From Chloroflexota bacterium (GTDB lineage Bacteria; Chloroflexota; Anaerolineae; Anaerolineales; Villigracilaceae), in NCBI GenBank assembly GCA_026390015.1, contig JAPLGS010000137.1:1-57287 (forward strand): a DNA stretch of 57,287 nt, in the 5' to 3' direction. Below the pieces are notes generated by a model, which did no database searches, was not told the DNA's origin, and was given only the letters and a program-made list of their open reading frames with translations. This document shows, piece after piece, positions 29,774-50,912 of the stretch; the stretch's first letter is position 1, and every line of letters begins with the position of its first letter. The position numbers and the translations under genes were made by a program.

Positions 29774-29775
29774 TT

Positions 29776-31171: not shown

Positions 31172-31186
31172 TTTAGTTTGAAAATC

Positions 31187-31225
31187 GAGAAGGCTGATTG
31201 GATCTTTCCATTCAGCCTTCTCTTT
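31187..31225 (+). terminator. Hairpin between nuoA and nuoH (attenuator-like)
   Basis: An 11-bp perfect stem GAGAAGGCTGA (31187-31197) / TCAGCCTTCTC (31212-31222) is followed by only three T residues. It could act as a weak terminator, an attenuator or an mRNA-end stabiliser separating nuoA from the rest. Confidence 0.5.
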
Positions 31226-31295
31226 GTGTAACGGCTCTCGCCGACTCCCTTCCCTATCGGGGGAAGAGTTGGGAATGAGGGAAACAGGAGTAACT

Positions 31296-32489: not shown

Positions 32490-32548
32490 TAAATAATAAT
32501 TGGCAATGAAATCTTCAATTACTATTTACGAATTACAAAGGATTTTAT

Positions 32549-33058: not shown

Positions 33059-33066
33059 GAGGTTAA

Positions 33067-33375: not shown

Positions 33376-33442
33376 GAAAAGGAATTAGGTAATTAGGAAT
33401 AATACATCCTAATCCCTAAGCGCCTATTTTTTCGGAGGCTTC

Positions 33443-35593
33443 ATGGCGACTGAAACATTAATTTGGTTAATTCCATTACCGCCTGTGCTGGCTTTCTTTT
33501 TGATCGTGTTATTCACGAATAAAAATAAAGCCTTGAGTCACAGCGTGGCAATTGGCGCGGCGTTCCTTTCATGGCTGGGGAGCATGATCGTTTTTGTGCG
33601 CGCGATTGGCGTGGAACATTTAGGCAAGCAACCGTTTGCATCTTCGATCAACTGGCTGCCGACTGGTGACACGTGGTTGAAGATCGGCGTGTTGATCGAT
33701 CCGCTTTCCGCGGCGGTTTTGTTCTTTGTAGCGTGGACCGTGTTGATGATCTTCATCTACAGCGTTGGCTATCATAATTATGGTCAGCCCGCTGGCGATC
33801 ATGACCAGGCAGGTTTGCCTCCGCATGGCGCGACTGCGCACGGACATACTGTGCCTTCGATAGAGCCGATGTACTCGCGCTTCTTTGCGTTCATTGGTTT
33901 ATTCGCTTTCGGCATGTACACACTGGTTGTCTCTGATAACCTACTTACGCTATTTGTGGGCTGGGAGATCATGGGCTTATGCTCCTACTTGTTGATCGGT
34001 TTCTGGTATGGCAAGCCATCCGCGCGTAATGCGGCAGTGAAAGCTTTCATGACCACCCGCATCGGCGATGTATTCATGCTTCTTGGCATTTCCTTCCTTT
34101 ACTATGCAACGGGCACGCTTACTTATCGCGAGATCTTCACTGAAGAGACTCTGCACGTGCTCTCATCAGTTCCAAGCGGTGTATTCGGTTTATCGGCTGC
34201 GGGGCTGATCGCGATATTACTCTTCATAGGCACGATCGGAAAATCGGCGCAATTCCCATTGCATGTCTGGCTTCCAGATGCGATGGAAGGTCCGACCCCT
34301 GTTAGTGCAATGATCCATGCAGCGACCATGGTTTCGGCGGGTGTGTATGCAGTCATCCGCATGTTCCCGTTGCTCAGCGCTGGCTGGCATGAAGGCGCGG
34401 CTTTGACTCCCGCAATGACTTTCGTCGCGTTCATCGGCGCGTTCACGGCTATCTTCGCCGCGACCATTGCCGTTGCGCAAAATGACATCAAGCGCGTGCT
34501 GGCTTACTCCACTATTTCACAACTCGGTTTCATGATCGCTGCGATCGGCATGGGCGCGTATGTTGCCGCTGTCTTTCATCTCATCACACATGCTTTCTTC
34601 AAAGCTTTGCTCTTCCTCGGTTCTGGTTCCGTTATTCACGGCATGGAACATGGCGTGCTTCACACTGGCAATCACAAAGTTGATCCGCAGGATATGTTCA
34701 ACATGGGCGGCCTTCGCAAGAAGATGCCTGTTACTTTCTGGACCTTCCTCATCGGGGGATTTGCTCTTTCAGGTTTCCCGCTCGTGACTGCAGGTTTCTG
34801 GTCGAAGGATGAAATCCTCGCTGATGCTTTCATCAACGGCCACTTGACGATTTTCATCACGCTGGCAATCGCCGCGTTCATGACCGCCTTCTACACCATG
34901 CGCCAGATCACACTCACGTTCCTCGGCGAAGCCCGCACGAAAGAAGCGGAACACGCGCAGGAGAATAAATGGACGATGACCGCTCCGCTCGTTGTACTTT
35001 CGGTCTTTGCCATCGGGTATGGCTGGGTCGGTATTCCCGAGCATTTCCCGCTCCTCGGTGGACTCGCGCCCAACTGGTTCCACGAATTCGTTGGAGGCAC
35101 TCTAGCTGAACTTCCGCCTGTTTTGGCATTCAACTGGATCCCGCTCTTAACATCGCTTGTCGTGGCTCTTGGTGGTCTGTCGCTTGGCTGGTATGTTTAT
35201 AAAGATATTAAATCTCCTGCTGAAGATAAATTCCAAATTCCTTTGCTCAAGAATAAATATTATTTCGATGAAGCTTATGAATATCTCTTCATCAAACCGT
35301 TGACCTGGTTCTCCGAAGTCTTCGTTAGCAAGTGGATGGACAAAGGCATCATCGACAGCATTCTGCACATCTTTGGTCCTGCCACCGGCGGAATTGGTTC
35401 CACCATCCGCAATTACTTTGACATCCCCGTAGTCAATCAATTCTTCGGCGACGGTTCAGCAGATGTCACTTACTGGATCGGCAAGAATCTCCGTCCCATT
35501 CAAACGGGCCACATCCAACAATATCTCATTCTTTCAATAGTCGTCCTTTCTGTTGTCGGCGGCTTAGTCTACTTTTTTCTGCTGGCAGCATAG
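33443..35593 (+). CDS. nuoL: NADH-quinone oxidoreductase subunit L (long form)
   Basis: This antiporter-like proton-pumping subunit has 716 residues, about 100 more than E. coli NuoL. Canonical charged residues are present: Glu in LFVGWEIMGLCSYLL, Lys in GTIGKSAQFPLHVWLPDA and the histidine-rich HAFFKALLFLGSGSVIHGME. The C-terminal region includes the lateral amphipathic helix (NKYYFDEAYEYLFIK onward) and extra sequence (IRNYFDIPVVNQFFGDG) before the anchoring helix. A longer lateral arm would be needed if an additional NuoM module is present, as the two nuoM genes suggest (inference). Confidence 0.96.
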   Translation: MATETLIWLIPLPPVLAFFLIVLFTNKNKALSHSVAIGAAFLSWLGSMIVFVRAIGVEHLGKQPFASSINWLPTGDTWLKIGVLIDPLSAAVLFFVAWTVLMIFIYSVGYHNYGQPAGDHDQAGLPPHGATAHGHTVPSIEPMYSRFFAFIGLFAFGMYTLVVSDNLLTLFVGWEIMGLCSYLLIGFWYGKPSARNAAVKAFMTTRIGDVFMLLGISFLYYATGTLTYREIFTEETLHVLSSVPSGVFGLSAAGLIAILLFIGTIGKSAQFPLHVWLPDAMEGPTPVSAMIHAATMVSAGVYAVIRMFPLLSAGWHEGAALTPAMTFVAFIGAFTAIFAATIAVAQNDIKRVLAYSTISQLGFMIAAIGMGAYVAAVFHLITHAFFKALLFLGSGSVIHGMEHGVLHTGNHKVDPQDMFNMGGLRKKMPVTFWTFLIGGFALSGFPLVTAGFWSKDEILADAFINGHLTIFITLAIAAFMTAFYTMRQITLTFLGEARTKEAEHAQENKWTMTAPLVVLSVFAIGYGWVGIPEHFPLLGGLAPNWFHEFVGGTLAELPPVLAFNWIPLLTSLVVALGGLSLGWYVYKDIKSPAEDKFQIPLLKNKYYFDEAYEYLFIKPLTWFSEVFVSKWMDKGIIDSILHIFGPATGGIGSTIRNYFDIPVVNQFFGDGSADVTYWIGKNLRPIQTGHIQQYLILSIVVLSVVGGLVYFFLLAA

Positions 35594-35599
35594 GAGCGC

Positions 35600-37126
35600 A
35601 TGATGGATTTCCTCAATACTCATCTCCTTAGCCTGATCTTATTCGTGCCGACGATCTCGGCGCTGGTCATGCTCTTTCTGCCAAGCGGCGAGACGAAACT
35701 TCTGCGCTGGTTTGCTTTCTGCGCCAGCTTGATCCCATTCGTTCTCACCCTTGTGTTATGGAGCAATTTCGATCCCAACAAGACAGGTTTTCAATTCCAG
35801 GAAATTTACCCCTGGTACGAAGCATTACACTCATCACTTCATTTGGGCGTGGACGGTATTTCTGTTTCAATGGTTTTGCTCACCACATTGCTGACGCCGC
35901 TCGCCATCCTCGCTTCTTTCAGCGTAACAGACCGCGTCAAGCCGTACATGATGCTCTTCCTATTTTTGGAAACAGGCATGCTCGGCGTCTTCATGTCCCT
36001 CGACCTGTTGGTCTTCTTCGTCTTTTGGGAAATTGGTCTCGTCCCGATGTATTTCCTCATCAATCAGTGGGGCAGTGCCAATAAGGATTACGCTTCGCTC
36101 AAGTTCATGATCTACACCATGGGCGGATCGCTCGGACTGTTGCTTGGGATTCAAATGCTCGGAGTTCTCTTCGGGACGTATGATCTGGTCACCCTCTATG
36201 AGCGTTGGAATTCACTGAATGCTGGTTCCATTCTCCTCGGTATGCCTGTGCATACCGTCAAGACCATCGCCTTCTGGGCATTCACCATTGCATTCGCCAT
36301 CAAAGTGCCGATCTGGCCATTCCACACCTGGCTGCCTGACGCGCATACCGAAGCCCCGACCGCCGGCTCCATGCTCCTCGCGGGTGTTCTTCTTAAACTA
36401 GGCGCCTACGGTTTCCTGCGACTCGTGCTCCCGTTCTATCCGCTGGAAGCGAAGATATTTGCGGGCGCGCTGGCTTTTCTCGCAGTCGCCGCGATTGTCT
36501 TTGGCGCATTCGCCGCGTATGGTCAGACGGATTTCAAACGACTTGTCGCTTATTCGTCGATCAATCACATGGGATTTGTGGTGCTCGGTATCGCCGCAGC
36601 AGCTGCCGCAGCAGGAACCGCCGACGCTCGTATCGCCATGAATGGCGCTGTCTTGCAGATGTTCAATCACGGATTATCCGCAGCTGGTATGTTCTTCCTA
36701 GTGGGTGTGATCTACGAACGCACGCACACACGCAACCTCGAAGAGTTCGGCGGATTGTTCCCTCTCGTGCCTGTCTACGGCGGCATTCTGATCTTCATGA
36801 GCATGGCATCGCTTGGCCTGCCCGGACTTAACGGCTTTGTCTCCGAGTTTATGGTGGTGCGGGGTGCGTTCCCGGTGTTGAAAATTTACACCGCAATTTC
36901 CATGATCGGTTTGTTTTTTACAGGTGCTTATATTTTGAAAGGCATCGCGAAAGTTTTGCATGGCCCCATGAATGAACATTGGGCGCATGGTGAACACAAA
37001 CTGACCGAGATCAACACCCGTGAAATTTTTGTGGTGGTCCCGCTCATGATCCTGATCCTTGTCATCGGCATCTGGCCGATGTGGATACTTGAAGTGATCA
37101 ATAAAGCTGTGGTTGCGCTTTTCTAA
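35600..37126 (+). CDS. nuoM: NADH-quinone oxidoreductase subunit M, first copy
   Basis: The 508-residue antiporter-like subunit has 14 helices. Key pumping residues are in place: E144 in FWEIGLVPMY, K235 in FAIKVPIWPFH and K266 in LLKLGAYG, near the E. coli positions (144, 234, 265). The ribosome site AGGAG overlaps the nuoL stop codon; either of two tandem ATGs (35600, 35603) may start it. It is followed by a second, divergent nuoM. Confidence 0.95.
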   Translation: MMDFLNTHLLSLILFVPTISALVMLFLPSGETKLLRWFAFCASLIPFVLTLVLWSNFDPNKTGFQFQEIYPWYEALHSSLHLGVDGISVSMVLLTTLLTPLAILASFSVTDRVKPYMMLFLFLETGMLGVFMSLDLLVFFVFWEIGLVPMYFLINQWGSANKDYASLKFMIYTMGGSLGLLLGIQMLGVLFGTYDLVTLYERWNSLNAGSILLGMPVHTVKTIAFWAFTIAFAIKVPIWPFHTWLPDAHTEAPTAGSMLLAGVLLKLGAYGFLRLVLPFYPLEAKIFAGALAFLAVAAIVFGAFAAYGQTDFKRLVAYSSINHMGFVVLGIAAAAAAAGTADARIAMNGAVLQMFNHGLSAAGMFFLVGVIYERTHTRNLEEFGGLFPLVPVYGGILIFMSMASLGLPGLNGFVSEFMVVRGAFPVLKIYTAISMIGLFFTGAYILKGIAKVLHGPMNEHWAHGEHKLTEINTREIFVVVPLMILILVIGIWPMWILEVINKAVVALF

Positions 37127-37130
37127 AACG

Positions 37131-37180
37131 TTCTCCTTCATCAGGAGTTCCCTCTCCAACGGGAGAGGGCTAGGATGAGG
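37131..37180 (+). repeat. REP-like palindrome in the nuoM-nuoM spacer
   Basis: CCCTCTCC-AAC-GGGAGAGGG forms a 7-8 bp hairpin followed by CTAGGATGAGGG, a form frequent in bacterial intergenic REP sequences. A related but decayed block lies before nuoH (31235-31285). It may stabilise or separate mRNA segments. Confidence 0.45.
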
Positions 37181-37193
37181 GTACGAGGTGATT

Positions 37194-38714
37194 ATGAATT
37201 TTCCGATCCTAAGTGTTATTACATTCCTTCCCTTTGCTGCGGCAATTATCATGTTGATGATGCCTGCCAACCGCAAGACGGAAGTTCGTGGTGTTGCGCT
37301 CGCAACCGCAGCGCTCGACCTTCTGCTGGCTGGCTGGGTGTATCTACAATATTTGCTTGGCCACCTGACAGGTTATCAGTTCATTGAAACATACAACTGG
37401 CTCCCCGCGCTTGGCATCAGCCTGAAATTCGGTGTGGACGGTATGAGCGCTCCGCTGGTACTTTTGACAGGTATCGTAATGTTCACGGGTGTACTCATCT
37501 CGTGGGGCGATTTTGATGAAGAGAGACATCTCTCTGCGGGCATTCAAGACAGACCGCGCGAATTCTTCGCCTTCCTCTTCCTACTGGCGGGCGGTGTGTT
37601 TGGCGTTTTCGTTTCGCTAGATCTTTTCATGTTGTTCTTCTTCTATGAAATTGCAGTGTTCCCGATGTACTTACTCATCTCGATCTGGGGCTGGGTCAAG
37701 ACCCGCGAATATGCGGCCATGAAGTTGACCCTGTATTTGTTCATCGGCTCAGTGGTGGCCTTGGTTGGTGCGCTTGTCATGTACTGGACACAATATCAAA
37801 ACACAGGCATCCTCTCTTTTGACATGATCCAGATGGAAAGCGCGGGTTTCTCTGCATCCTTCCAATATATCTGGTTCCTGCCAGTCTTCCTTGGTTTTGC
37901 GGTTTTAGGCGGCATCTGGCCGTTTCACAATTGGTCACCTGATGGCCACGTGGCCGCGCCGACAGCCGTCTCCATGTTCCATGCGGGCGTTTTGATGAAA
38001 CTCGGCGCATTCGCTGCTTTGCGTGTAGGTATTATGCTTTTACCTGAAGGCGCGAAACAATGGGCCTGGCTGATCATGATCTTTGCAGGCGTAGCGGTTG
38101 TGTACGGCGCGTTCATTGCCTTCGTCCAAACAGACTTGAAATACATGATCGGCTTCTCTTCTGTTTCCCACATGGGACTTGTTGTTCTGGGCGTCTCGAC
38201 GCTCAATCATGATGGTCTCGTTGGGGCGGGGGTGCAAATGTTCTCGCACGGTGTGATGACGGCTCTCTTCTTTGCAATCACAGGCATGATCTACGACCGC
38301 TCTCACACACGTCAGATCCCTGAACTCGGCGGTATGATGAAAGCACTGCCATTTGCAGGCTTCGGTTTTATTATCGGCGGCCTTGTTTCGATGGGCATGC
38401 CCGGCTTCTCCGGATTTGTTGCTGAGTTCCCAATTTTCATGGGCGTGTGGGGACGGCAGTGGCTCGTGGCAGTCATCGCAAGTATTTCCATCATCATCAC
38501 CGCGACTTATATCATGATCGCCATTCGCCGCGTGTTCTTTGGTCCAATGCCTGAGAAACTCGAAGGCCATATTTCACCCATTACCGCGCTGGATAAGATC
38601 GCCATCTTCACCCTTTGTTCCTGCATGGTCCTCATCGGCATTTTCCCGGCTGTGATGGTTCCCATGGTCGAAACAGGCGTTGAAAATATCCTGCGCCTCC
38701 TGGGAGGTGCATAA
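37194..38714 (+). CDS. nuoM: NADH-quinone oxidoreductase subunit M, second copy (variant lacking helix-7 Lys)
   Basis: This 506-residue NuoM homologue differs from the first copy throughout. E152 (FFYEIAVFPMY) and K269 (LMKLGAFA) are kept, but the motif FAIKVPIWPFH of the first copy reads FAVLGGIWPFHNWSPDGH here. Leu238 thus stands where the essential helix-7 lysine should be. ATG 37194 has a GAGG site 5 bases upstream; a GTG two codons earlier is possible. Two NuoM modules between NuoL and NuoN match the described 2M-type complex I, predicted to pump more ions per electron pair. Confidence 0.93.
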   Translation: MNFPILSVITFLPFAAAIIMLMMPANRKTEVRGVALATAALDLLLAGWVYLQYLLGHLTGYQFIETYNWLPALGISLKFGVDGMSAPLVLLTGIVMFTGVLISWGDFDEERHLSAGIQDRPREFFAFLFLLAGGVFGVFVSLDLFMLFFFYEIAVFPMYLLISIWGWVKTREYAAMKLTLYLFIGSVVALVGALVMYWTQYQNTGILSFDMIQMESAGFSASFQYIWFLPVFLGFAVLGGIWPFHNWSPDGHVAAPTAVSMFHAGVLMKLGAFAALRVGIMLLPEGAKQWAWLIMIFAGVAVVYGAFIAFVQTDLKYMIGFSSVSHMGLVVLGVSTLNHDGLVGAGVQMFSHGVMTALFFAITGMIYDRSHTRQIPELGGMMKALPFAGFGFIIGGLVSMGMPGFSGFVAEFPIFMGVWGRQWLVAVIASISIIITATYIMIAIRRVFFGPMPEKLEGHISPITALDKIAIFTLCSCMVLIGIFPAVMVPMVETGVENILRLLGGA

Positions 38715-40163
38715 ATGTTTACTCCCATCATGTTCGCTTCCATTCTCCCTGAAATTTTGATCCTCACTCTCGCTGTGATCCTGCTATGCGTTGAGCCATT
38801 CTGGAAAGAAGACCAACGCCGCAATGCGGGCTGGCTCACCTCAGGCGGATTATTCCTGATCATCATCGTCAGCCTGCTCTTCGGTCAACCCGGCGAGCCG
38901 ACTTCTGTCTTCGGCAACATGATCCGCTTTGACTGGCTGGGTTTCTTCTTCAAGATCTTATTCATGTTTGCAGCCGCTGTGACAGCCTTGTTTTTGATGG
39001 ACCACGAGAAAGCGGGACAGCGTGGAGAAGCATATCTTCTACTATTAGCCTCGCTTCTCGGCATGAACCTGATGGCTGTTTCTGCTGACTTGATCATGCT
39101 CTACCTTGCAATTGAAACCGCCTCCATTCCACTGTACATTCTCGCAGGCTTTTTACTCGCTGACGATCGCTCCACTGAAGCTGGCTTCAAGTATTTGCTG
39201 TTCGGTACAGTGACTTCCACTGTCATGCTCTACGGCTTCAGCCTAATTTTCGGCTTTGCTGGCACAACGAATATTTACCTGCTTTCTAACTTGTTCGCCA
39301 GCGGACAAATTTCAGTTGCACTCGCATTCAGTATCTTTGCCCTTGTGCTCGTTGGAATTGGATTCAAGATCGCCATTGTTCCTTTCCAATTTTGGGCGCC
39401 TGATGTATATCAAGGTTCGCCGACTCCTGTGGCGGGCTTCCTCTCCACCGCTTCCAAAGCTGCGGGCTTCGCAGTCATCGTTCGCTTTTTCTTTGTCGCA
39501 TTCCCCGATTACGCCCCGTCATGGACCGTGATCCTTGCAGCGCTTTCAGCCATCACCATGACAGTTGGCAACTTACTCGCGATGTCACAGACGAATATCA
39601 AGCGCCTACTTGCGTACTCATCCATTGCACATGCCGGCTATGCATTGATCGGCGTGGTTGCGTTTAGTCAACTTGGAGCGGCGAGTGTGGTCTTTTATCT
39701 CGCGGCATATATCGCCACGAACCTGCTCGCCTTCGGAGTAGTCATGGCGTTCAGCCGTGTGACTGGTCTCGAAGACATCACAGACTACGCGGGCATGAGC
39801 CGCCGCAGTCCATGGTTGGGGTTGATGATGCTGGCCGCGTTCCTTTCGCTTGCAGGTATGCCTCCGTTCGGTGGCTTCGTGGCGAAGGTCTTTGTCTTTG
39901 CTGCAGGTGTGCAAGCAGGTTATACGTGGTTGATCATAGTCGGTATTCTCAACTCGATCCTCGGCGTATACTACTATCTCAATACGATGAAATACATTTA
40001 TCTTTATCGTATGCCCAATGAAGATGAAGAGAATCATCCCATCCCATTGACCCGCCCGTATGCCATCGCGTTAGTCGTGTTGGTGCTTGGAGTGATTTTG
40101 GTCGGCACAGTATTCGCTCCGTGGTTCAGCTGGTCAAATGCCGCGGCGTTGAATTTGTTCTAG
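38715..40163 (+). CDS. nuoN: NADH-quinone oxidoreductase subunit N
   Basis: The 482-residue antiporter-like subunit has 14 helices. Its conserved residues include Glu in LYLAIETASIPLYIL, Lys in GFKIAIVPFQFWAPDVY and Lys in STASKAAGFA. The ATG directly follows the stop of the second nuoM. It is the last complex I gene here. A partial inverted repeat ATGATGT/ACATCAT (40190-40220) lies before the atp promoter. Confidence 0.96.
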   Translation: MFTPIMFASILPEILILTLAVILLCVEPFWKEDQRRNAGWLTSGGLFLIIIVSLLFGQPGEPTSVFGNMIRFDWLGFFFKILFMFAAAVTALFLMDHEKAGQRGEAYLLLLASLLGMNLMAVSADLIMLYLAIETASIPLYILAGFLLADDRSTEAGFKYLLFGTVTSTVMLYGFSLIFGFAGTTNIYLLSNLFASGQISVALAFSIFALVLVGIGFKIAIVPFQFWAPDVYQGSPTPVAGFLSTASKAAGFAVIVRFFFVAFPDYAPSWTVILAALSAITMTVGNLLAMSQTNIKRLLAYSSIAHAGYALIGVVAFSQLGAASVVFYLAAYIATNLLAFGVVMAFSRVTGLEDITDYAGMSRRSPWLGLMMLAAFLSLAGMPPFGGFVAKVFVFAAGVQAGYTWLIIVGILNSILGVYYYLNTMKYIYLYRMPNEDEENHPIPLTRPYAIALVVLVLGVILVGTVFAPWFSWSNAAALNLF

Positions 40164-40210: not shown

Positions 40211-40240
40211 TTGACATCATCTTGACCTGTCAGTTATAAT
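40211..40240 (+). promoter_or_regulatory. Consensus promoter of the Fo gene cluster
   Basis: A perfect TTGACA (40211-40216), 18 bases and a perfect TATAAT (40235-40240) lie 8 bases before the ATG of the first gene. Transcription would begin at or within two bases of the start codon, giving a leaderless or nearly leaderless mRNA. It is the best sigma70-type promoter in the window. Confidence 0.75.
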
Positions 40241-40248: not shown

Positions 40249-40527
40249 ATGGCACAATCTGAGCAGAACCGTCGCAATAGCATGATTAGTACTCTGCTGA
40301 TCGTTGTGATCGGCCAGGTGGGTTGTTTGACCCTGGCGGTCATTCTGGCTTCTGTGTTTGGCGGATTGTGGCTGGATAAGACGTTTGATACGAAACCAGT
40401 TTTTACTCTGGTGTTGCTGTTTGCTGGAATTCCTCTCTCGGTGTTCCTGATGCTGTACGTCTCGCGGAAATCGCTGGCTCGGCTGAAGGAAAAATACGAA
40501 ACCGAAGAGAAAGAAAAAACTGTTTAG
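40249..40527 (+). CDS. AtpZ/AtpI-like F-ATPase accessory membrane protein
   Basis: The 92-residue protein has two hydrophobic helices (about 14-40 and 47-70) around a short charged turn (LDKTFDTKP), with a lysine/glutamate-rich C-terminus. This is the usual form of AtpZ/AtpI proteins at the head of F-ATPase operons, where they help c-ring assembly or Mg2+ entry. No Shine-Dalgarno site precedes it; see the promoter entry. Its TAG stop is part of the AGGAGG ribosome site of atpB. Confidence 0.82.
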   Translation: MAQSEQNRRNSMISTLLIVVIGQVGCLTLAVILASVFGGLWLDKTFDTKPVFTLVLLFAGIPLSVFLMLYVSRKSLARLKEKYETEEKEKTV

Positions 40528-40537
40528 GAGGCGGACT

Positions 40538-41551
40538 TTGGAACAAGAGAAACGAAGACCCTGGCGCCGATGGGTCGTGCTGGTGCTGATGATCGCAGGT
40601 TTTATTTTGGGCGGTATCTTTGCCCCTGTTCAACCTGAGATCACAGTGGCCGCCGAAAAATTAATTGAGGAACCTATCGCAGAGAATTTCCTCGGATTGG
40701 GTCCGTTGTATTTGGTAAATACAATGCCGACGCTGGCTGTGACGATTGTCCTGCTGGTCGTTATCGCATTCTTTACCAATCGTTCATTGAAGAAAAGCCA
40801 AAACACAGATCTTGTGCCACGCGGCATTGGTAATGTGATGGAGGCCATTCTTGAGATGCTCTATAACCTTACTGAAGGTTCTGCGGGCACAAAGTGGGCG
40901 AGGACAATATTCCCCTGGTTTGCAACGATCATGATCTATGTTTTGTTCGCAAATTTGCTTAAGTTGATTCCCGGCTTTGAGTCGATCGGTGTTTTGCACC
41001 ACGCTCCCGGCGAAGGCTATCAGATCGCTCCACTCTTCGGCAATTGGTCGAGCCTCGTGCCTGGCAAGGTGGAGGAAGGCGGTTACATTCTCGCGCCATT
41101 CTTCCGCGGCATTTCAGTCGATTTGAACTTCACCGCTGCGCTGGCAATTATTGCAGTTGTGGCAATTCAATACATCGGCTTTCGCGCGCAGGGATTTGGC
41201 TATTTGAGCAAGTTCTTCAACACCCGCCGAATGTTCAAAGTACCGTTCTTCGGCGCGATGGACTTTTTGGTTGGCCTGCTTGAGTTGATCTCGGAACTCT
41301 CGAAGATCCTCTCGTTTGCCTTCCGTCTTTTCGGTAATATGTTCGCAGGCATCGTGTTGGTAGCCATCGTCGCAGGCTTGTTGGGACGTATCTCCATTTT
41401 GCCCGCGATGATCATGATGTTTGAATTGTTCGTAGGTCTTATTCAGGCATTCGTGTTCGGCATGTTGACCATGGTCTTTATGGCGCAAGCCACGCAAGGT
41501 CACGGCGGCGAAGAGCACGCTGAAGCTCATTCGGAAGCTCACGATATTTAA
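40538..41551 (+). CDS. atpB: F-type ATP synthase subunit a
   Basis: The 337-residue membrane subunit forms the proton half-channels of Fo. The essential arginine is R263 in FAFRLFGNMFAG. The preceding LELISELSKILS and the final-helix LFVGLIQAFVFGMLTMVFM are conserved. The C-terminus is His/Glu-rich (GHGGEEHAEAHSEAH). The start is TTG with a strong AGGAGG site; no in-frame ATG lies near. It is longer than E. coli AtpB (271) mainly in the N-terminal region and in an insert after the second helix. Confidence 0.95.
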   Translation: MEQEKRRPWRRWVVLVLMIAGFILGGIFAPVQPEITVAAEKLIEEPIAENFLGLGPLYLVNTMPTLAVTIVLLVVIAFFTNRSLKKSQNTDLVPRGIGNVMEAILEMLYNLTEGSAGTKWARTIFPWFATIMIYVLFANLLKLIPGFESIGVLHHAPGEGYQIAPLFGNWSSLVPGKVEEGGYILAPFFRGISVDLNFTAALAIIAVVAIQYIGFRAQGFGYLSKFFNTRRMFKVPFFGAMDFLVGLLELISELSKILSFAFRLFGNMFAGIVLVAIVAGLLGRISILPAMIMMFELFVGLIQAFVFGMLTMVFMAQATQGHGGEEHAEAHSEAHDI

Positions 41552-41583
41552 TTAACCCAATCATTATTAAGGAGAATTACAAC

Positions 41584-41823
41584 ATGGAAGGAAATATTTT
41601 AGATGCAATGCGCTACGTTGGCGCAGGTTTGGCAATGATCGGCGCCGCAGGTGCTGGTATCGGTATCGGATTGAGCGTACAGGGCGCACTTACGGGAATG
41701 GCTCGCAATCCTGATACCTATGGTAACTTGTTAACCAATATGATCCTGGGCATCGCGTTTTCAGAAGCTATCGCTATTTACTGCCTGGTAATCGCGTTCC
41801 TCATGCTCTTCAAAGTTGTGTAA
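41584..41823 (+). CDS. atpE: F-type ATP synthase subunit c
   Basis: The 79-residue hairpin protein forms the c-ring. Helix 1 is Gly-rich (GAAGAGIGIGLSVQGALTG) with the polar loop RNPD; helix 2 carries the ion-binding E61 in IAFSEAIAIY. The helix-1 position that is Gln in Na+-binding c subunits is Ile here, and no Ser/Thr follows E61, so a proton-specific ring is predicted (inference from the Na+ motif). AAGGAG lies 9 bases before ATG. Confidence 0.96.
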   Translation: MEGNILDAMRYVGAGLAMIGAAGAGIGIGLSVQGALTGMARNPDTYGNLLTNMILGIAFSEAIAIYCLVIAFLMLFKVV

Positions 41824-41842
41824 ATCATAGGAGCATAGAAAC

Positions 41843-42577
41843 ATGGCCGCACTTGGAATTAGTCCTGGTTTTCTCATTGTTCAGATCATCGCGTTCATTA
41901 TTGTCTTGCTGACGTTGAACGCGTGGGTCTACAAGCCCATGCTGGATATGATGGAGTCTCGTAAACAGAAGATCGCGCAAGGTTTGGAAGATGCCCGCGT
42001 CGCAGCTGAAGCCCGTAAGGATGCGGAGAAAGAAGCCGCAAAAATCCTTACTGCCGCGCAAACCGAAGCTGGCAAGATCGTTCGGGAAGCAACTGAACGC
42101 GCCTTATCAGCTGGTAAAGATGTAAAAGTTGCTGCAGAAGCCGAAGCTGCCAAAGCTCGTGTAGTCGCAATGGCCGAGGCCGACCTCGAACGTAATCGTA
42201 TTCTTGGTGATTTGCGCGGGCAAGTTGCCGCTCTTGCACTTGCTGCAGCCAACAAACTTGTTGGCGAAGCATTGGATGAGAAAAAGCAACATGTATTGAT
42301 TGATGAATTCTTTTCCGGTGTTAAATCTGGAAAAGTGGTTGTTCTTGATGATGCTGACTTCAAGGGTGATTCTGCTGAAGTCACCAGCGCCTTGCCACTC
42401 AACGATAAAGAACAGAGTACCGTTAAAAAGAGTGTTCTCCAAAAAATTGGCGCGAAAGATGTTGCCTTCCGCGTAGATCCATCCATACTTGGCGGCTTGG
42501 TCATTAAGGTCGGTGATAAGGTGGTTGATGGTTCTGTGGCCGGTAAACTCGAAGGCCTAAGACAGAGTTTAAAGTAA
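41843..42577 (+). CDS. atpF: F-type ATP synthase b-delta fusion protein
   Basis: The 244-residue protein begins like subunit b: a membrane helix (8-27), KPMLDMMESRKQKI and a long Ala/Glu/Lys coiled coil to about residue 160. From about 164 to the end it matches the C-terminal domain of subunit delta/OSCP: VTSALPLNDKEQ, then FRVDPSILGGLVIKVGDKV and the ending DGSVAGKLEGLRQSLK. The helical N-terminal domain of delta, which caps F1 by binding the alpha N-termini, has no counterpart. b-delta fusions are known in mycobacteria but keep a whole delta. It is the last F-type gene here; no alpha, gamma, beta or epsilon gene follows. Confidence 0.9.
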   Translation: MAALGISPGFLIVQIIAFIIVLLTLNAWVYKPMLDMMESRKQKIAQGLEDARVAAEARKDAEKEAAKILTAAQTEAGKIVREATERALSAGKDVKVAAEAEAAKARVVAMAEADLERNRILGDLRGQVAALALAAANKLVGEALDEKKQHVLIDEFFSGVKSGKVVVLDDADFKGDSAEVTSALPLNDKEQSTVKKSVLQKIGAKDVAFRVDPSILGGLVIKVGDKVVDGSVAGKLEGLRQSLK

Positions 42578-42600
42578 GCAGTCAAAAAATAAATGTTTGT

Positions 42601-42645
42601 AAATTAAAGATCCTGGCAATTATTGTCAGGATCTTTAATTTATTT
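42601..42645 (+). terminator. Strong terminator ending the Fo cluster
   Basis: A stem of about 18 bp (AAATTAAAGATCCTGGCAA pairing with its complement up to 42641, one G-U pair) with a tight loop is followed by an AT-rich tail (TTATTTAT). It separates the F-type genes from the V/A-type operon. Confidence 0.85.
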
Positions 42646-42789: not shown

Positions 42790-43101
42790 ATGAACGAGAA
42801 TCGGATCCAGCAAGTTCTTGAAATCGAAAAGCAAGCGCAGGAAATACATGAAGCAGCAATTCGGGAAGCCCAACAACTGCCGATTTTAGCAGAACAGGAA
42901 TCTCAGGCTGTAATAGAAAAGGCTCGGGTTGCAGCGCAACAAGAAGCCCGTGAACTTATCGCTAATGCTCAGGCGACGGAAGAAACAGCCCGCATTCTGG
43001 CGGCGGCTGAGGGAAAAAATAATCAGGTCGAAGCGCTGGCCATGAGCAATTTTGACCGCGCCGTCAACTACATTTTGGATCGTGTAACTGGTATAGAATA
43101 A
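42790..43101 (+). CDS. ntpH: V/A-type ATPase subunit G/H (peripheral stalk)
   Basis: The 103-residue protein is almost wholly a Glu/Ala/Gln-rich coiled coil (residues 5-75), with a short hydrophobic C-terminal helix (AMSNFDRAVNYILDRVTG). This is the form of peripheral-stalk subunits AhaH/NtpF/VatH that pair with subunit E. It is the first gene of the operon, 3 bases before subunit C. Confidence 0.8.
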   Translation: MNENRIQQVLEIEKQAQEIHEAAIREAQQLPILAEQESQAVIEKARVAAQQEARELIANAQATEETARILAAAEGKNNQVEALAMSNFDRAVNYILDRVTGIE

Positions 43102-43104
43102 CTC

Positions 43105-44175
43105 ATGGCGGCAAGCGGCGTTTCAGGATATGCGGCTATTAGTGCGCGGGTGCGCGCTATGTACTCGTCTCTATTAAGTCCGCAGGAAATGGCTCGATTG
43201 AGTGACTCTCCTGATTTTCAATCCCTACTAGCACAACTTAAACCCACAATTTATGGTTCTTACATCGAAGAATTAAAAGAAAAAGAGCTTACGCCTCGCA
43301 GGGTGGTATTTCAGATTAAAGGGCGCCTTGCAGATGTCTATGATAGCGTCATCCATATGGCACCTGAACATACCCGTCCGCTGCTTACTCAGCTTTATCG
43401 TTATTTCGAAGTGGAAAATCTAAAAGCTGTGTTGCGAGGTATTGTAACTGACCCAACCTGGGAGCGCGTGCGTGATGTACTTTTCCCCTATGGCTCGATG
43501 AGCGTATTGCCTTTGCAGGCGATGGTGGAGGCAGGAAACGTATCCGCCGCAGTCGAATTGCTGCGTGGTACAGTTTACGAGGAAACGCTTTCATTTGCCA
43601 TGAAGCGTTACAGCGCCGAACAAAATCTTTTTCCGCTGGAAGTGGCGTTGGACTTAAATTATTGGCGAAAACTATGGCAGGAAACCAAGCGCCTGCCAAG
43701 TAAAGATCAACAGCAGGCATTGCGCGTTGTGGGGTCATTAATCGATATGAACAACCTGATGTGGGCCATTCGTTATCGGGTCTACCATGAACTCTCTGAA
43801 GAAGAATTAATTAACTACACACTACCATTTGGCTATCACCTCCGTGATGATGATATTCGTTCAATCGCCGCTGGAGCGGATATTGCTTCTGTGGTGCAGC
43901 GAGTCTACCCTGGCATCCCGGACTTGAATATCCTGCTTGAAGAACCACGCAGCGGATTGCCGTTGTTGGAATTACAGCTAAAGCAAAACCTCATGAGACA
44001 GTGTATGGCTGCTTTTGTTGGAGATCCCTTTCATATTGGCATACCGCTTGCATATCTTGTATTATGCGAACTTGAAATACAGGATATGACCGTGTTGCTT
44101 GAAGCAATGTTTTCGCGAGTATCAGAAGAGAAGTATCGACCCTACCTCTTAAAAACAGCGTTAGTTAAAGCGTAG
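43105..44175 (+). CDS. ntpC: V/A-type ATPase subunit C (d-type connector)
   Basis: The 356-residue helical protein of the AC39 family forms the socket between the central shaft and the membrane ring. Family patterns include the N-terminal GYAAISARVRAMYSSLLS, YFEVENLKAVLRG near residue 100 and RYRVYHELSEEELINYTLPFGY near 225. The length is close to that of Thermus subunit C. It has no obvious Shine-Dalgarno site, so it is probably coupled to translation of the preceding gene. Confidence 0.9.
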   Translation: MAASGVSGYAAISARVRAMYSSLLSPQEMARLSDSPDFQSLLAQLKPTIYGSYIEELKEKELTPRRVVFQIKGRLADVYDSVIHMAPEHTRPLLTQLYRYFEVENLKAVLRGIVTDPTWERVRDVLFPYGSMSVLPLQAMVEAGNVSAAVELLRGTVYEETLSFAMKRYSAEQNLFPLEVALDLNYWRKLWQETKRLPSKDQQQALRVVGSLIDMNNLMWAIRYRVYHELSEEELINYTLPFGYHLRDDDIRSIAAGADIASVVQRVYPGIPDLNILLEEPRSGLPLLELQLKQNLMRQCMAAFVGDPFHIGIPLAYLVLCELEIQDMTVLLEAMFSRVSEEKYRPYLLKTALVKA

Positions 44176-44249
44176 AAACTTGAATGATCGTCGGTTCGCC
44201 GAAACGCAAGTGGTAGAAAAATAAAAACGTTAGAGAGACCGGAGAAGCC

Positions 44250-46223
44250 ATGTTCTTTCCAAAAGAGATGATGGAAATTGAGTTGATTGTTCCTGCAAAA
44301 GACCTGCTTGCAGTGACAAAGGTATTAAGCGGGCATGGTGTTTTCCACCAGGCAGATAGTAGTTATCCCAGCCTCGGAAGCGGCAATACCTGGCAGGAAA
44401 GCGCGGCTGGATACGCCGGACTTGAACGTCGAATCCAGGTTATTATGCAGACCTTATCCATTGATGAAGGCCAGCCTCAAGCAAATAAAGAATTTGAAAC
44501 GATGGGTGACCTTGACGTGATCCGTTCCGCGGTTGAAGGAATGGAAGACGAAGTTAAACAGGCGACAGATCAACGTATCGCTGAAAAGAAACGGCTTGAA
44601 CAACTCGAAAGCACTCTTCATCAACTTCAACCTGTTGCTGACATCGATCTCGACATTAGTTCCATGCGAAACTCACGCTATTTATTTTCGATGCTTGGAC
44701 AGATCCCGGCGGCAAATGTAGAGCGATTGCAGACCAGCCTTGCGCGCGTCCCAAATGTTTTTCTAACTTTGCGTTCAGACATATCCAAGCCTGTTGTCTG
44801 GCTGGCTGGAACACAAGCCAACGCTGATGTTTTAGAACGCGCCGCCCGCAGCGCGTATTTGAGTCCTTTAACCCTGCCGGAAGAATATCAGGGCACACCC
44901 GCAAAGATCATCGCCGCGCTTCAAACTACGATCGAGAGTACAAATCGTAAGATCGCTGATCTGGAGGTAACATTAGCTCAAATTGGAAAAACTCGCATCG
45001 AACAATTACGTGCCTTGTTGTGGGATGTGCATGCGAGCCGAGTCATGGCTGAAGCAATCGTCCGATTTGGACAACTTCGTTATACCTATGTGGTCACAGG
45101 TTGGGTGCAAAGCGACGATATGGAAAGTTTGACTCAAAGACTCAAAACAGCATCCAAAGAAATTCTAATTGAAACATTGCCAACTACGCGTAGCGGGTTT
45201 AACTCAAATGTGCCTGTTGCCATGCAAAACTCGAAATTTTTGAAACCCTTCCAAATGCTGGTTAATACATATTCACGGCCCCGCTACGGTGAATTAGATC
45301 CAACATGGTTTATCGTATTCATGTTCCCGTTTCTGTTCGGTGCGATGTTTGGAGACATAGGGCAGGGCTTGGTCCTGGCTTTGCTCGGATACCTTATGGC
45401 AAGCAAAAAAGTAAAGGCTCTAAGCGGATTATCAGGATTGGGAGGGGTTGTTGCCTTGTGTGGAGCATCTGCTACTTTGTTTGGATTCCTCTATGGGAGT
45501 ATTTTTGGCTTTGAAGAGGATGTCCATATTTTTGGTATGAAATTGGAGCCGCTCTGGATAAGCCCGATCCACCATATTATGGATGTTCTCATGGTTGCCG
45601 TTGGCGCAGGTGTGGTACTGCTGATCCTTGCCTATTTGATCGGCATTTTCAACTACACGGTATCAAAAGAACGAGGGCATTTATTATTTGGGCACAACGG
45701 AATCGCCGGGTTCGTTTTATATTTATCGCTTTTGGGATTTGGCGGCGCATCTTTCGGTGTATTGCCTGTTTCGCCAACTGTGTTTTTAGCGCTGGCAATT
45801 TTCGCTGGGATAGGGGTTTTATTCTCTGAGGTATTCATCCATCTTGTGGAGGGTCACAGACCCTTGATAGACGGCGGGATCGGCACTTATTTAATCCAGG
45901 CTGGCGTTGAACTGTTTGAAGTCATCATCAGTATGTTAAGCAACACCCTTTCCTATGTGCGCGTGGGCGCCTTTGCTGTGGCGCATGGCGGTCTGAGTCA
46001 GGCGATTTTCATTCTGGCTAGATTGGCAGGCGGGGGTGAGGATGGCGGGTTTGGTTACTGGATTACGATCATCCTAGGCAATCTGTTCATCATTGGCTTT
46101 GAAGGATTGATCGTCGGCATTCAAACCATGCGCCTCTCGTATTATGAATTCTTTAGCAAGTTCTTTACAGGCGGTGGAATGCGCTTTGAACCGTTGACGT
46201 TGAAGCCTGTGCAGGAAGAGTAA
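44250..46223 (+). CDS. ntpI: V/A-type ATPase subunit I (a-type)
   Basis: The 657-residue stator subunit has a cytoplasmic N-terminal half (1-345) with long coiled-coil arms and a C-terminal half of about eight membrane helices beginning at WFIVFMFPFLFGAMFGDIGQG. The essential arginine that faces the c-ring lies in TLSYVRVGAFAVAHGGLSQ. Length and topology match the bacterial NtpI/archaeal AtpI family. GGAG precedes the ATG. Confidence 0.95.
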   Translation: MFFPKEMMEIELIVPAKDLLAVTKVLSGHGVFHQADSSYPSLGSGNTWQESAAGYAGLERRIQVIMQTLSIDEGQPQANKEFETMGDLDVIRSAVEGMEDEVKQATDQRIAEKKRLEQLESTLHQLQPVADIDLDISSMRNSRYLFSMLGQIPAANVERLQTSLARVPNVFLTLRSDISKPVVWLAGTQANADVLERAARSAYLSPLTLPEEYQGTPAKIIAALQTTIESTNRKIADLEVTLAQIGKTRIEQLRALLWDVHASRVMAEAIVRFGQLRYTYVVTGWVQSDDMESLTQRLKTASKEILIETLPTTRSGFNSNVPVAMQNSKFLKPFQMLVNTYSRPRYGELDPTWFIVFMFPFLFGAMFGDIGQGLVLALLGYLMASKKVKALSGLSGLGGVVALCGASATLFGFLYGSIFGFEEDVHIFGMKLEPLWISPIHHIMDVLMVAVGAGVVLLILAYLIGIFNYTVSKERGHLLFGHNGIAGFVLYLSLLGFGGASFGVLPVSPTVFLALAIFAGIGVLFSEVFIHLVEGHRPLIDGGIGTYLIQAGVELFEVIISMLSNTLSYVRVGAFAVAHGGLSQAIFILARLAGGGEDGGFGYWITIILGNLFIIGFEGLIVGIQTMRLSYYEFFSKFFTGGGMRFEPLTLKPVQEE

Positions 46224-46292
46224 TTGAAAATATTATTCAGATTTTGAAAAAAATAATTATACAAGAATATAAAATCATATTTCAAGGAGTAA

Positions 46293-46733
<441 letters not shown>

Positions 46734-46739
46734 CACGCA

Positions 46740-47045
46740 ATGAAAGTTTTGGTGATCGGCCATCCAGAAGCAGTCTTAGGTTTTTCCTTGGCCGGCGTAA
46801 ACGGTCAGGCGGCTTCGACTGCTGATGAAGCTAATCAGGCGCTTGATAATGCTTTTGCAACGAAAGATATCGGCATTATTCTGGTCACTCAGGATATAGC
46901 CGGAATGATCCAATCTAGAGTCGAAGACCTCAAATTGCACAGCACAATTCCGCTGGTTGTGGAGATCCCATCTCCAGCCGGTGTATCAGCGGACCAACCC
47001 TCCCTTAGCCAGATCGTGCTTCGCGCCATCGGAATTAAGTTATAG
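46740..47045 (+). CDS. ntpG: V/A-type ATPase subunit F
   Basis: The 101-residue Rossmann-like protein of the central shaft shows the family pattern VIGHPEAVLGFSLAGV at the start and GIILVTQDIAGMIQ in the middle. PLVVEIPSPAG follows near the end. It starts 6 bases after subunit K. Gene letters for this family differ between species. Confidence 0.9.
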   Translation: MKVLVIGHPEAVLGFSLAGVNGQAASTADEANQALDNAFATKDIGIILVTQDIAGMIQSRVEDLKLHSTIPLVVEIPSPAGVSADQPSLSQIVLRAIGIKL

Positions 47046-47104
47046 AAATCCTGCCTGCTTCACGTGTATGTTGAGTGAGGCAGAAATCAATTGGTGGTTT
47101 ACTT

Positions 47105-47725
47105 ATGAAACCTGAAGAAGAGAATATCGAAAATCTTTCACGCGCCATCCTGTTTGAAGCGAAGTCAGACGCAGAGCAAATTCAAACAGACGCCAAAGAG
47201 AAAGCTGATGCGATTCGACAGCAGGCGCAGCAACGGGCAGAGTCTGAGCGCAAAGAAATCATGGAGCGCGCCAAGCAGGACGCGGAGCGCATCCGCAGCC
47301 AGGTCGTTGCCACGGCTCAAATGAAGGCGCGTACTTTGCAGTTGGAACATCGCGAAAAACTACTGGACAAAGTATTTAATGCCGCAAAAGAAAAATTAGC
47401 CAGTCTGCAAAAGCGGCCTGATTATGACAAAGTTGTGGCCGAACTTCTTAGAGAAGCAGTTACCCAATTGAAAGTTGATCAGGCTGAGGTGCGGGTTGAC
47501 GCGGCGACTCAAAAAGTTTTGAAAGAACAAACACTGAGCGAACTGTCCAAAGAATTGAAGACCCAACTCTCCATTGGGAAAGCGCTTGAGGATGGATTGG
47601 GTATCGTTATTAATGCAGACCACGGACGATTACATTATGATAATACACTGGAGACTCGCTTGAACCGATTGCAGAGTGCGCTTCGTTCGGCGGTATATCA
47701 CGTGCTGATGGGAGAAAAACTATGA
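47105..47725 (+). CDS. ntpE: V/A-type ATPase subunit E (peripheral stalk)
   Basis: The 206-residue protein has an N-terminal coiled coil rich in Ala, Glu, Lys and Arg (residues 5-85), then a globular C-terminal domain with KVVAELLREAVTQL and GLGIVINADHGRLHYDNTLE typical of subunit E. It should pair with the G/H subunit to tie A3B3 to subunit I. ATG 47105 is chosen over a GTG ten codons upstream because family sequence begins here. It overlaps the subunit A gene by 4 bases. Confidence 0.92.
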   Translation: MKPEEENIENLSRAILFEAKSDAEQIQTDAKEKADAIRQQAQQRAESERKEIMERAKQDAERIRSQVVATAQMKARTLQLEHREKLLDKVFNAAKEKLASLQKRPDYDKVVAELLREAVTQLKVDQAEVRVDAATQKVLKEQTLSELSKELKTQLSIGKALEDGLGIVINADHGRLHYDNTLETRLNRLQSALRSAVYHVLMGEKL

Positions 47726-49488
47726 GCGAGCAGGTCGGCGTAGTAACCTGGATCAGCGGGCCCGTTGTCAGAGCGCGTGGTTCGCGTTATGTTGGTATGC
47801 TTGAATTGGTCGAAGTTGGAGAGGATCGGCTCGTCGGTGAAGTGATCGGTTTAAATGGTGACATCATCACGGTCCAAGTATATGAAGAAACCTCGGGCAT
47901 GAAGCCTGGCGCACCTGTGTATGGTACCGGCTTGCCCCTTTCTGTTGAGCTTGGCCCCGGCTTATTGAAGAGTATTTTTGATGGAGTTCAGCGTCCATTA
48001 CCATTGATCGAAATAGAATCGGGTTCATTCATTGGACGCGGCATGCGCCTCGACCCGCTTTATCGAAAAGACCGCTGGAAGTTCAACCCGACTGCAAAAG
48101 TTGGAGATGTAGTTTCGCGCAGCGCGATCATCGGCACAGTGATGGAGACGGAAACTTTCGAACATCGCATCATGGTGCCTGCGGATCTTTCCGGCACTTT
48201 GACTTGGGTCGCGCCTGCCGGTGACTATACAATCGAAGACCCAATCGCAAAATTAAAAGTTGGCAATGAAGAAAAAGTGTTGACCATGCTTCAGCGTTGG
48301 CCTGTTCGTAGACCGCGCCCATACATGACTCGTATGCGCGGTACCACGCCTTTGATCACGGGTCAGCGCGTATTGGATACATTCTTCCCCGTTTCAAAAG
48401 GCGGCGCGGCGGGCATCCCCGGGCCGTTTGGTTCGGGAAAAACTGTCACCCAGCATAGCATCGCGAAATGGGCTGACGCGCAAGTCATTGTTTATATTGG
48501 ATGCGGTGAACGCGGCAACGAAATGACCGAAGTGCTGCAGGAATTCCCGCATCTTGTAGATCCACGCAGCGGCCGCCCACTAATGGAACGCACTGTATTG
48601 ATCGCGAACACATCCAACATGCCGGTTGCGGCGCGTGAAGCCAGTATTTATACAGGAATTACCATCGCCGAATATTATCGTGATATGGGATATCACGTGG
48701 CGTTGATGGCTGATTCAACCTCCCGGTGGGCTGAAGCTTTGCGCGAGGTCTCTGGTCGTCTGGAAGAAATGCCCGCCGAAGAAGGCTACCCCGCTTATCT
48801 GGCTGGGCGTTTGGCTGAATTTTATGAACGCGCCGGTTATGTCGAAACCATGAACGATCATATCGGTTCCGTTACCATCGTTGGCGCGGTATCTCCGCCT
48901 GGCGGTGACTTCTCCGAGCCGGTCACCCAGCATACCAAACGTTTTATCCGCTGCTTCTGGGCTTTGGATAAATCATTGTCATCGGCGCGTCACTTCCCAT
49001 CCATCAACTGGCTGGATAGTTATAGCGAATATTTGGATGATGTGGCAGACTGGTGGCAGGAAAAAGTTGGCAAAGATTGGTTGAAAATGCGCAACCATGC
49101 CATGGAACTTCTAAGTGAAGAGAGCCGCCTTTCACAGATCGTGAAACTGGTCGGCCCGGATGCCCTTCCTGACGAGGAACGTTTGGTTTTGGAAACATCA
49201 CGCCTGCTTCGTGAAGGATTCCTTCAGCAGAATGCAATGGATAAAGTGGATGCTTTTTCCACGATCCAAAAACAGATTCGCATGTTGGAGCTCATCTTGT
49301 ATTTCCATGAACGCGGGTTGCGAATTGTCAAACACGGTGCGCCTATTTCCTTGATCCATAACCTGCCAATCGTGGATACACTCATTCGTATGAAGAGCAT
49401 TGTGCCAAATGAAGAGCTGGAAAAGATGGACGATATTCAAAAACAAATTGACGACCAAATGAGTCAATTGGATGTGGAGTACCGATGA
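47722..49488 (+). CDS. ntpA: V/A-type ATPase catalytic subunit A
   Basis: The 588-residue catalytic subunit has the P-loop GPFGSGKT (residues 234-241, K240). The catalytic glutamate region is in [14 protein letters not shown], and the non-homologous insert typical of A/V-type subunits lies between about 115 and 200. [23 protein letters not shown] is canonical. ATGA overlaps link it to both neighbours (subunits E and B), so translation is probably coupled. Full length, with no missing residues. Confidence 0.97.
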
Positions 49489-50912
49489 GTGACGTAATTG
49501 TACAAAGCGGCCAGGAAGTTGTTGGCGTTAGCCGAATTACCGGCCCAATTATGATTGTTGAAGGCGCTGCGAATGTTAGCTATGATGAAGTAGTGGAGAT
49601 TCGCGATGGGCGTGGCAATCTGCGCCGCGGACGTGTGCTGGAAGTGGGCGAGAAAACATGCGTGGTTCAGGTGTTTGCCGGTTCAACCGGCCTGTCCATT
49701 GATGGCACGCGCGTCCGTTTTCTGGGTGATACTTTGCGCATCCCCGTTGCGGAAGAAATGCTAGGACGGGTCTTTGACGGTTTGGGCAATCCACTCGATG
49801 GCGGCCCCCAGCCTTTAACCGATCATTTCGCAGATGTTAATGGCCAGCCGATTAATCCGACTGCGCGTATTTATCCACGTGACTATATTCAAACCGGCGT
49901 TTCTGCCATCGATGGCTTGAATACACTTTTACGCGGACAGAAATTGCCCATTTTTTCCGGCGCAGGCATGCCTCACGATCAACTCGCTGCTCAAATCGTA
50001 CGTCAGGCGACCCTGGGTGCGCCTACAGATGCGCCATCCGCTGAAGCCGAACAGTTTGCGATCGTGTTTGCCGCCATGGGTGTTAAACATGATGTGGCTA
50101 ATTTCTTCCGCCGTTCTTTTACAGACAGCGGCGCCCTTACTCGTGTGGCAATGTTCCTCAATCTGGCAGATGACCCCCCAGTCGAACGTCTTGTGACTCC
50201 GCGCGCGGCGCTGACTCTTGCTGAATATCTTGCCTACGAAAAAGGAATGCATGTGTTGGTCGTCCTGACAGATATGACTAACTATTGCGAAGCCCTTCGT
50301 CAGATCTCCAACATTCGCGGAGAAGTGCCCAGCCGAAAAGGTTATCCGGGTTATCTTTATAGCGACCTTGCTTCCTTGTATGAACGCACTGGCCGTATTC
50401 GTACCAGCGAGGGCTCCATCACACAGATCCCAATTTTGACCATGCCCAGTGATGACATTACACACCCGGTTCCAGACTTGACAGGGTATATTACTGAAGG
50501 TCAGATCACACTTGGCCGTGAGTTGGATCACTCCGGCATATATCCGCCCATCGCTGTGTTACCCAGCCTTTCCCGTTTGATGAAGGACGGCATAGGTCAG
50601 GGGCGCACTCGCGGGGATCATCCACGTTGGGGTGCACAACTCTATGCCGCATATGCTCACATGCAGGATGTGCGCTCGTTGGCCTCCGTCATCGGCGAAG
50701 AGGAATTGGGTGAGGTGGATCAGAAATACCTGAAGTTTGGCCGTGCGTTTGAAAAAGAATTTATCAATCAATCTCCAACCGAAAATCGCACCATTGAACA
50801 AACCTTAAGTATTGGCTGGCGTTTGCTTTCGATGCTGCCGAAAGATGAGCTGACGCGCGTAAGTCTGGATGAGTTAAAACAATACTACCAGGGCGAAGAT
50901 GCCAAACATTAA
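49485..50912 (+). CDS. ntpB: V/A-type ATPase regulatory subunit B
   Basis: The 475-residue non-catalytic subunit carries the degenerate P-loop [19 protein letters not shown], as usual for B subunits. Further conserved segments are FNTLLRGQ-type ([11 protein letters not shown]), [16 protein letters not shown] and [22 protein letters not shown]. It overlaps subunit A by 4 bases and subunit D by 14 bases. Confidence 0.97.

Follow-up and report, generated by a model that had tools for sequence, protein, structure and literature searches.

The 57,287-nucleotide stretch analysed here (the window: contig JAPLGS010000137.1 of assembly GCA_026390015.1, a Chloroflexota bacterium of the Villigracilaceae, Anaerolineales) carries Fo genes of an F-type ATP synthase with no F1 genes behind them, and the initial annotation had asked whether F1 is encoded elsewhere or whether this Fo has a different partner or has become a proton channel. 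We find that the window genes are very probably one half, Fo, of the single F-type ATP synthase in this cell, encoded at a split locus and lacking the N-terminal domain of the delta subunit (OSCP). The separation of Fo from F1 is lineage-wide, with Fo placed behind the genes of complex I, and it accompanies the loss of the delta N-domain. A split operon answers the original puzzle and is in itself ordinary; the loss of the delta N-domain and the placement of Fo make this a new variant of a known machine. The Fo unit consists of the following features:

40249..40527, + strand: atpZ, AtpZ-like (PF09527, 8.2e-10, above cut-off)
40538..41551, + strand: atpB, Fo subunit a, 337 amino acids (PF00119, 2.5e-40), Arg263 present
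41584..41823, + strand: atpE, Fo subunit c, 79 amino acids (PF00137, 6.4e-18), Glu61 present
41843..42577, + strand: atpF, a b-deltaC fusion of 244 amino acids (PF00430 and PF00213)
42599..42643, no strand assigned: 21-bp hairpin ending the Fo unit, fold -26.2 kcal/mol, terminator-like with a weak T tail

Family matches confirmed that atpZ, atpB, atpE and an atpF fusion stand here without F1 genes after them: neither the gene calls nor the family matches of the window contain an F1 gene 3' of atpF. The marks of an F-type Fo are all present, namely the essential arginine of a and the ion-binding glutamate of c, both intact as initially annotated, together with a b subunit, and the closest PDB match of the a subunit is that of Chloroflexus aurantiacus (4.3e-46). 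Two earlier descriptions needed trimming. The supposed strong terminator is a stable hairpin, but one without a clean T-run, and a terminator scan gave no call there; the supposed b-delta fusion does join b to delta, but only OSCP profile positions 103-172, the delta C-terminal domain, are kept. The window enzyme would use H+ as its coupling ion, and Fo and F1 proteins made from two loci would meet in the membrane, assemble and couple as an H+-driven F1Fo.

The F1 genes lie elsewhere in the same genome, one of the two outcomes that had been foreseen. This genome (G000; the window is its contig C177, and G, L and f labels denote genomes, loci and families of our sample) is a metagenome-assembled genome (MAG) of 4.31 Mb in 177 contigs, 95.2% complete and with 3.93% contamination. 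Searches of it for gamma, a and OSCP gave exactly one match each, and located a Pfam-supported atpA-G-D-C set on contig C3 (alpha, gamma, beta and epsilon, as in F-type enzymes), flanked by a divergent D-Ala-D-Ala-ligase-like (ddl-like) gene and by mreB. The synteny comparison that had been proposed showed the same split in single-contig relatives, where a and gamma are separated by 831 kb (G025), 430 kb (G243), 757 kb (G299; this genome also carries an N-type-like a/gamma pair, and we infer the pairing of its non-N-type copies from scores) and 20 kb (G009), the Fo and F1 sets being non-adjacent in all four. In G061, assembled in 3 contigs, a and gamma are ~1 Mb apart on one contig, and in G000 the halves are on different contigs.

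No full delta (N- plus C-domains) was found in G000, which marks its enzyme as an F-type variant. A delta N-domain profile built from nine other genomes matched 8 of 8 full-length controls (E<=3.2e-15) and found nothing at E<=10 in G000; among 16 reduced genomes, 15 gave no match at that threshold and G061 gave one at the chance level of 0.52. A separate gene supplying the N-domain in compensation was considered, and this search did not find one.

Reduction of delta is common in the class. Among the matches listed, 143 of 150 class genomes have an OSCP match, and sorting these by hand on listed ranges, gamma scores and frame lengths gave 70 full-length, 58 reduced and 15 solely N-ATPase-like genomes, the last defined by low gamma scores and a short a, with gene order not part of the basis. 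Ten of the reduced cases match from profile position 12-71; sequences were read for G003, G138, G061, G115 and G034, and G067, G130, G104, G032 and G084 were judged by frame length. The a and gamma genes are contiguous in 55/67 full-length genomes vs 9/56 reduced genomes with both placed. This count leaves out genomes with a or gamma missing or unlisted (G137, G116 and G141, full; G140 and G097, reduced) and uses one listed pair where a genome has several matches (e.g. G024, G054, G067), the odd G054 and G024 being counted as full.

Across these genomes delta forms a series: full; 167 amino acids with an unrecognised N-part (f18); 118-120 amino acids (f27, f34); a C-domain on its own, 84 residues long (f5); and b-deltaC. 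Delta appears to have been shortened on several occasions, because f5, f27 and f18 each stand beside full-delta families in the F1 tree (local support 0.995, 0.939 and 0.999, respectively); the tree is midpoint-rooted with weak basal support, and no single origin of the fusion is claimed. G043 (f12), which stands by itself in the tree, at 8% contamination and with two OSCP matches, was not relied on. In a 201-genome sample of the phylum, OSCP outside the class is mostly full-length among the matches listed, which include shortened forms starting from position 38 (f89) and from 48 and 55 (f56).

Both halves keep constant company. All eight mapped f1 genomes have nuoN-atpZ-atpB-atpE-b-deltaC at one locus and ddl/atpAGDC/mreB at the other. 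The nuoN gene lies 5' of Fo in 22 of 23 split loci of the genome sample, the window counted in, and in 65 of 65 named relatives with enough upstream sequence, the gap from nuo to atpZ having a median of 95 nt (71 loci) and reaching 3.3 kb in L178; mreB was recognised beside F1 in 21/23 split loci, an exception being L080, whose contig ends 3' of gamma. The named relatives are the best 80 of 341 loci from a scan with the b-deltaC alignment, and their titles read Chloroflexota, Anaerolineae or genera of that phylum; Leptolinea, Ca. Desulfolinea and Ca. Villigracilaceae belong to the Anaerolineales (NCBI taxonomy), whereas the title 'Brevefilum fermentans' has no entry there. On the basis of these relatives we assign the window to the Anaerolineales. 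One locus is titled Herpetosiphon (class Chloroflexia), with a protein 80% identical to the window's, and the cultured isolate Leptolinea tardivitalis YMTK-2 (L171) carries the b-deltaC gene. In open-licence PubMed Central we recognised no paper that treats, for the Anaerolineae, either a b-deltaC fusion or an Fo linked to nuo genes.

Contiguous families run a-c-b-delta-alpha-gamma-beta-epsilon, with mreB next in 10 of the 11 full-delta loci mapped (it was not detected in L096). Other layouts occur: ~2 kb separates gamma from beta in 3/4 mapped f4 genomes, the halves are convergent neighbours in two f9 genomes, and they lie ~20 kb apart in 5/6 f10 genomes in which both could be placed. Bacteria usually have the contiguous order (PMC4154653), which makes a relocation of Fo to the end of the complex I genes the simplest reading.

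Two observations concern the F-type genes of other genomes in the sample. In G025, two adjoining gamma fragments in short frames (C1:2348998-2349539) look like a decayed second copy. Among the matches listed, G033 and G085 (f33), G010 (f11) and G128 (f42) have no gamma, a or OSCP at completeness of 87-99%, and may lack an F-type ATP synthase or have had it missed; of the four, only G085 has a match to AC39, a V/A-type marker.

The missing domain, which caps F1, bears directly on the peripheral stalk. The delta N-domain is described as sitting on the pseudo-three-fold axis and restricting the enzyme to one stalk; in an engineered Bacillus PS3 enzyme (delta-deltaN-alpha), its removal, with the C-domain fused to alpha, is reported to allow up to three stalks and a subunits at an H+/ATP of 5.8, and a natural delta-C/alpha fusion is predicted in Acidaminococcus fermentans (PMC12229609). 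The window resembles both in having the N-domain removed and the C-domain fused, but its fusion partner is b rather than alpha. The ATP synthase of C. aurantiacus, from the same phylum (PDB 9itj and related, March 2025 release), is the best PDB match for the a subunit and the b part. Its chains number 18 alpha and 12 delta, each over 6 entries, and 36 a and 72 b, each over 18; the mean entry has 3 alpha, 2 delta, 2 a and 4 b, from which we infer two stalks on one F1. The Chloroflexus delta is separate and short (157 amino acids), with ~83 residues before the C-domain; in the window those residues are gone and the C-domain is on b, so that the window lineage, in which no N-domain was found, is at the level of sequence further reduced than Chloroflexus.

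The combination associated with several stalks, a delta N-domain absent and a C-domain kept, is present in sequence, and the N-terminal segment of alpha is retained in all groups compared. The b-deltaC protein would have to hold F1, most likely through these alpha segments; without the N-domain the three-fold axis of F1 would be free, and one c-ring could then be driven by two or three proton channels. The published engineering and the Chloroflexus chain counts make a natural multi-stalk enzyme of high H+/ATP plausible. That the window-type enzyme has more than one stalk is a tentative proposal, to which we give slightly less than an even chance; we are just as guarded in suggesting that a large part of the class may run a natural multi-stalk ATP synthase, each b-deltaC dimer with its own a subunit.

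A b-deltaC homodimer might instead gather two delta C-domains in a single stalk, the second replacing the grip of the N-domain on the alpha N-termini, with one a subunit and an ordinary H+/ATP. We consider this possible but doubtful. The Fo unit has one b gene, so a b dimer would carry two C-domains; the b-deltaC profile, which matches b and then the delta C-domain of solved enzymes, over residues 65-240 also matches V/A-type subunit E, a stalk protein whose function needs no delta N-domain; and N-ATPase-like loci in the class show the same OSCP region, in ~260-residue frames among the matches listed. Against a single stalk stand the multiple stalks of the engineered enzyme lacking the N-domain and the two implied by the Chloroflexus chains.

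An insert of 47-53 residues after the HSRLLER helix of alpha occurs in 17 of 22 fused genomes, and in 0/11 full-delta and 0/6 separate-delta-C genomes. It is 52 residues long in G000 (L009 8746-10410, contig C3). The insert may be a stalk contact or a mere lineage marker; as a requirement of the fused state it is ruled out by its absence from 5/22 fused genomes.

Several points weigh against our account of the window genes as the Fo half of a split, delta-reduced ATP synthase. G000 is fragmented (177 contigs) and its assembly does not give its own Fo-F1 distance, and in 12 of the 67 genomes with a full-length delta, too, a and gamma fall on separate contigs, through fragmentation or real splits. 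G003 is split with no nuoN within 6 kb 5' of Fo (L081), and no beta, epsilon or mreB was recognised within 6 kb after its gamma (L082). The searches could have missed a delta N-domain that has diverged strongly, or a second b, and PF00430 was not searched genome-wide. The AlphaFold2 model of b-deltaC is weak, with a mean pLDDT of 70.9 and a pTM of 0.26, and too weak at the C-domain to strengthen the case from sequence; Foldseek with this model placed delta/OSCP chains first (1.5e-5), and the VIA Z values, at most 7.2, do not decide the matter.

It is very improbable that the two halves are the broken operon of an N-ATPase, an accessory Na+ pump. The fusion does match alt_F1F0_F0_B over residues 11-242 (71.5 bits), and the N-ATPase (Dibrova 2010), described as having no delta subunit and a long b said to resemble subunit E (PMC5706428), is to that extent like the window. 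However, the alt_F1F0 models fall far under their cut-offs for a (71.4/302.1 bits), b (71.5/224.7) and c (42/130.85), which separates the two by sequence family, and gene order separates them too: N-ATPase operons are described as starting with beta-epsilon and continuing a-c-b-alpha-gamma (PMC5709465), which is not the order of the window Fo or of the C3 F1 genes, alpha-gamma-beta-epsilon. The G000 gamma scores 311 bits vs 123-194 among the listed gammas of N-ATPase-like genomes. Finally, the N-ATPase is an accessory enzyme, whereas the window's is the only F-type enzyme found in G000, where no second, canonical F1Fo was detected.

The window offers a second conceivable partner for Fo immediately downstream:

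42790..51543, + strand: nine-gene V/A-type ATPase (H/G, C, I, K, F, E, A, B, D), probably a separate enzyme

Nine genes do follow, as initially annotated, but the completeness of the set is less firm, its first gene (H/G) reaching 26 bits vs a cut-off of 107; the promoter ascribed to it was not recovered, no sigma-70-like site being present between the Fo unit and the V/A-type set at the scan threshold. That Fo serves this neighbour, or works as a regulated proton channel without F1, is likewise very unlikely. Within the window the two sets are neighbours, and of 62 named relatives with enough sequence 3' of Fo, 15 have a V-type gene there within 3.5 kb; the placement is thus not unique to G000, although of the 20 genomes with AC39 in the class sample only G000 shows it (the position of a in G137 is unlisted and G085 has no a match). 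But in the other 47 testable relatives neither a V-type C gene nor an I gene was found within that distance of Fo, AC39 is present in only 20/150 class genomes, and the other two f1 genomes that have it, G080 and G131, carry it on a contig other than that of Fo. The V/A-type set brings I and K membrane subunits of its own; it looks like a separate enzyme whose adjacency to Fo is incidental, and the complete F1 set in G000 disposes of an orphan Fo or a differently partnered one. The V/A-type c subunit (window 46296-46733) has one recognisable c domain (83-142), preceded by ~80 N-terminal residues that resemble, by eye, two additional transmembrane segments.

Least probable of all is an assembly or binning artefact, with the window contig misjoined, as the initial annotation had allowed, or the F1 contig foreign: a MAG of 177 contigs with 3.9% contamination leaves room for one, but both sides show the same order in 7 further f1 genomes, named relatives (e.g. 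L104, L106) repeat the nuo-Fo-V order, the halves lie apart in single-contig genomes, and the F1 of G000 falls within f1 in the tree.

Upstream, the split Fo unit is bordered by two further features:

30818..40163, + strand: complex I membrane-arm genes nuoA-H-J-K-L-M-M-N (NCBIfam), directly 5' of the Fo genes
40211..40240, + strand: predicted sigma-70 promoter TTGACA-18-TATAAT, 12/12 consensus matches, ending 8 nt 5' of the atpZ ATG

A match of 10/12 or better whose -10 box ends no more than 11 nt 5' of the start codon (taken as the first in frame) is found at the same place in 58 of 70 close named relatives vs 0 of 350 shuffles, the relatives not being independent of one another, and is absent by this measure from the other 12 loci. 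It is also lacking at atpZ in the more distant families f4, f9, f10, f19, f21, f31, f32 and f44, and it was missed in the f1 genomes G101 and G131, in one through the choice of start codon and in the other through a poor -35 box. In close relatives Fo thus probably has its own near-consensus promoter, and with the -10 box so near the atpZ ATG, the transcript would start at or next to the ATG, predicting a leaderless mRNA. By comparison, atpA in eight f1 genomes has a GGAGG-like site 5', and its best promoter match (10/12) has a -10 box 110-208 nt upstream.

The complex I genes include tandem NuoM-type genes (35600-37126 and 37188-38714) with 34% identity. For complex I variants with a second NuoM, extra proton pumping has been proposed. 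Runs of NuoM/NuoN-like matches 5' of Fo suggest that many relatives share the nuoL-M-M-N order, NuoL being no separate query. None of nine further upstream frames scanned (18255-30678) was recognised as nuoB, C, D, E, F, G or I, and the membrane parts of complex I appear grouped with Fo, apart from the soluble parts. A 243-residue frame directly 5' of nuoA (29950-30681) matched no Pfam or NCBIfam family at the thresholds applied.

Other systems share single features with the window. The mycobacterial b-delta (7jg5 chain d, 445 amino acids) also joins b and delta in one chain; it is ~200 residues longer than the window's 244-residue fusion, with room for a full delta, which it contains. Fo and F1 genes are likewise reported in two places in alpha-proteobacteria and Nitrospirae, both loci being needed for one enzyme (PMC4154653). 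There, the cut is described as falling between b and delta, so that delta stays with F1, whereas in the window the delta C-domain is fused to b and the N-domain is lost. The same 2014 survey lists chloroflexi among the non-split groups (PMC4154653). A 2025 paper sets engineered multi-stalk ATP synthases apart from nature's approach but also names Acidaminococcus as a likely natural case (PMC12229609).

If the Anaerolineae enzyme does have several stalks, it would be a third natural route to this design, in which delta-C is carried by b and not by alpha or as a separate protein, and its H+/ATP would be well above the usual, so that ATP synthesis at low proton-motive force would be open to energy-limited anaerobes. 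Should stalks lacking a delta N-domain be common among Anaerolineae, H+/ATP ratios and growth limits for them would need revision. The series of full, shortened, lone delta-C and b-deltaC forms offers natural material for testing what sets stalk number, and an Fo unit behind complex I, away from F1, provides a natural case for how F1 and Fo are balanced from separate loci.

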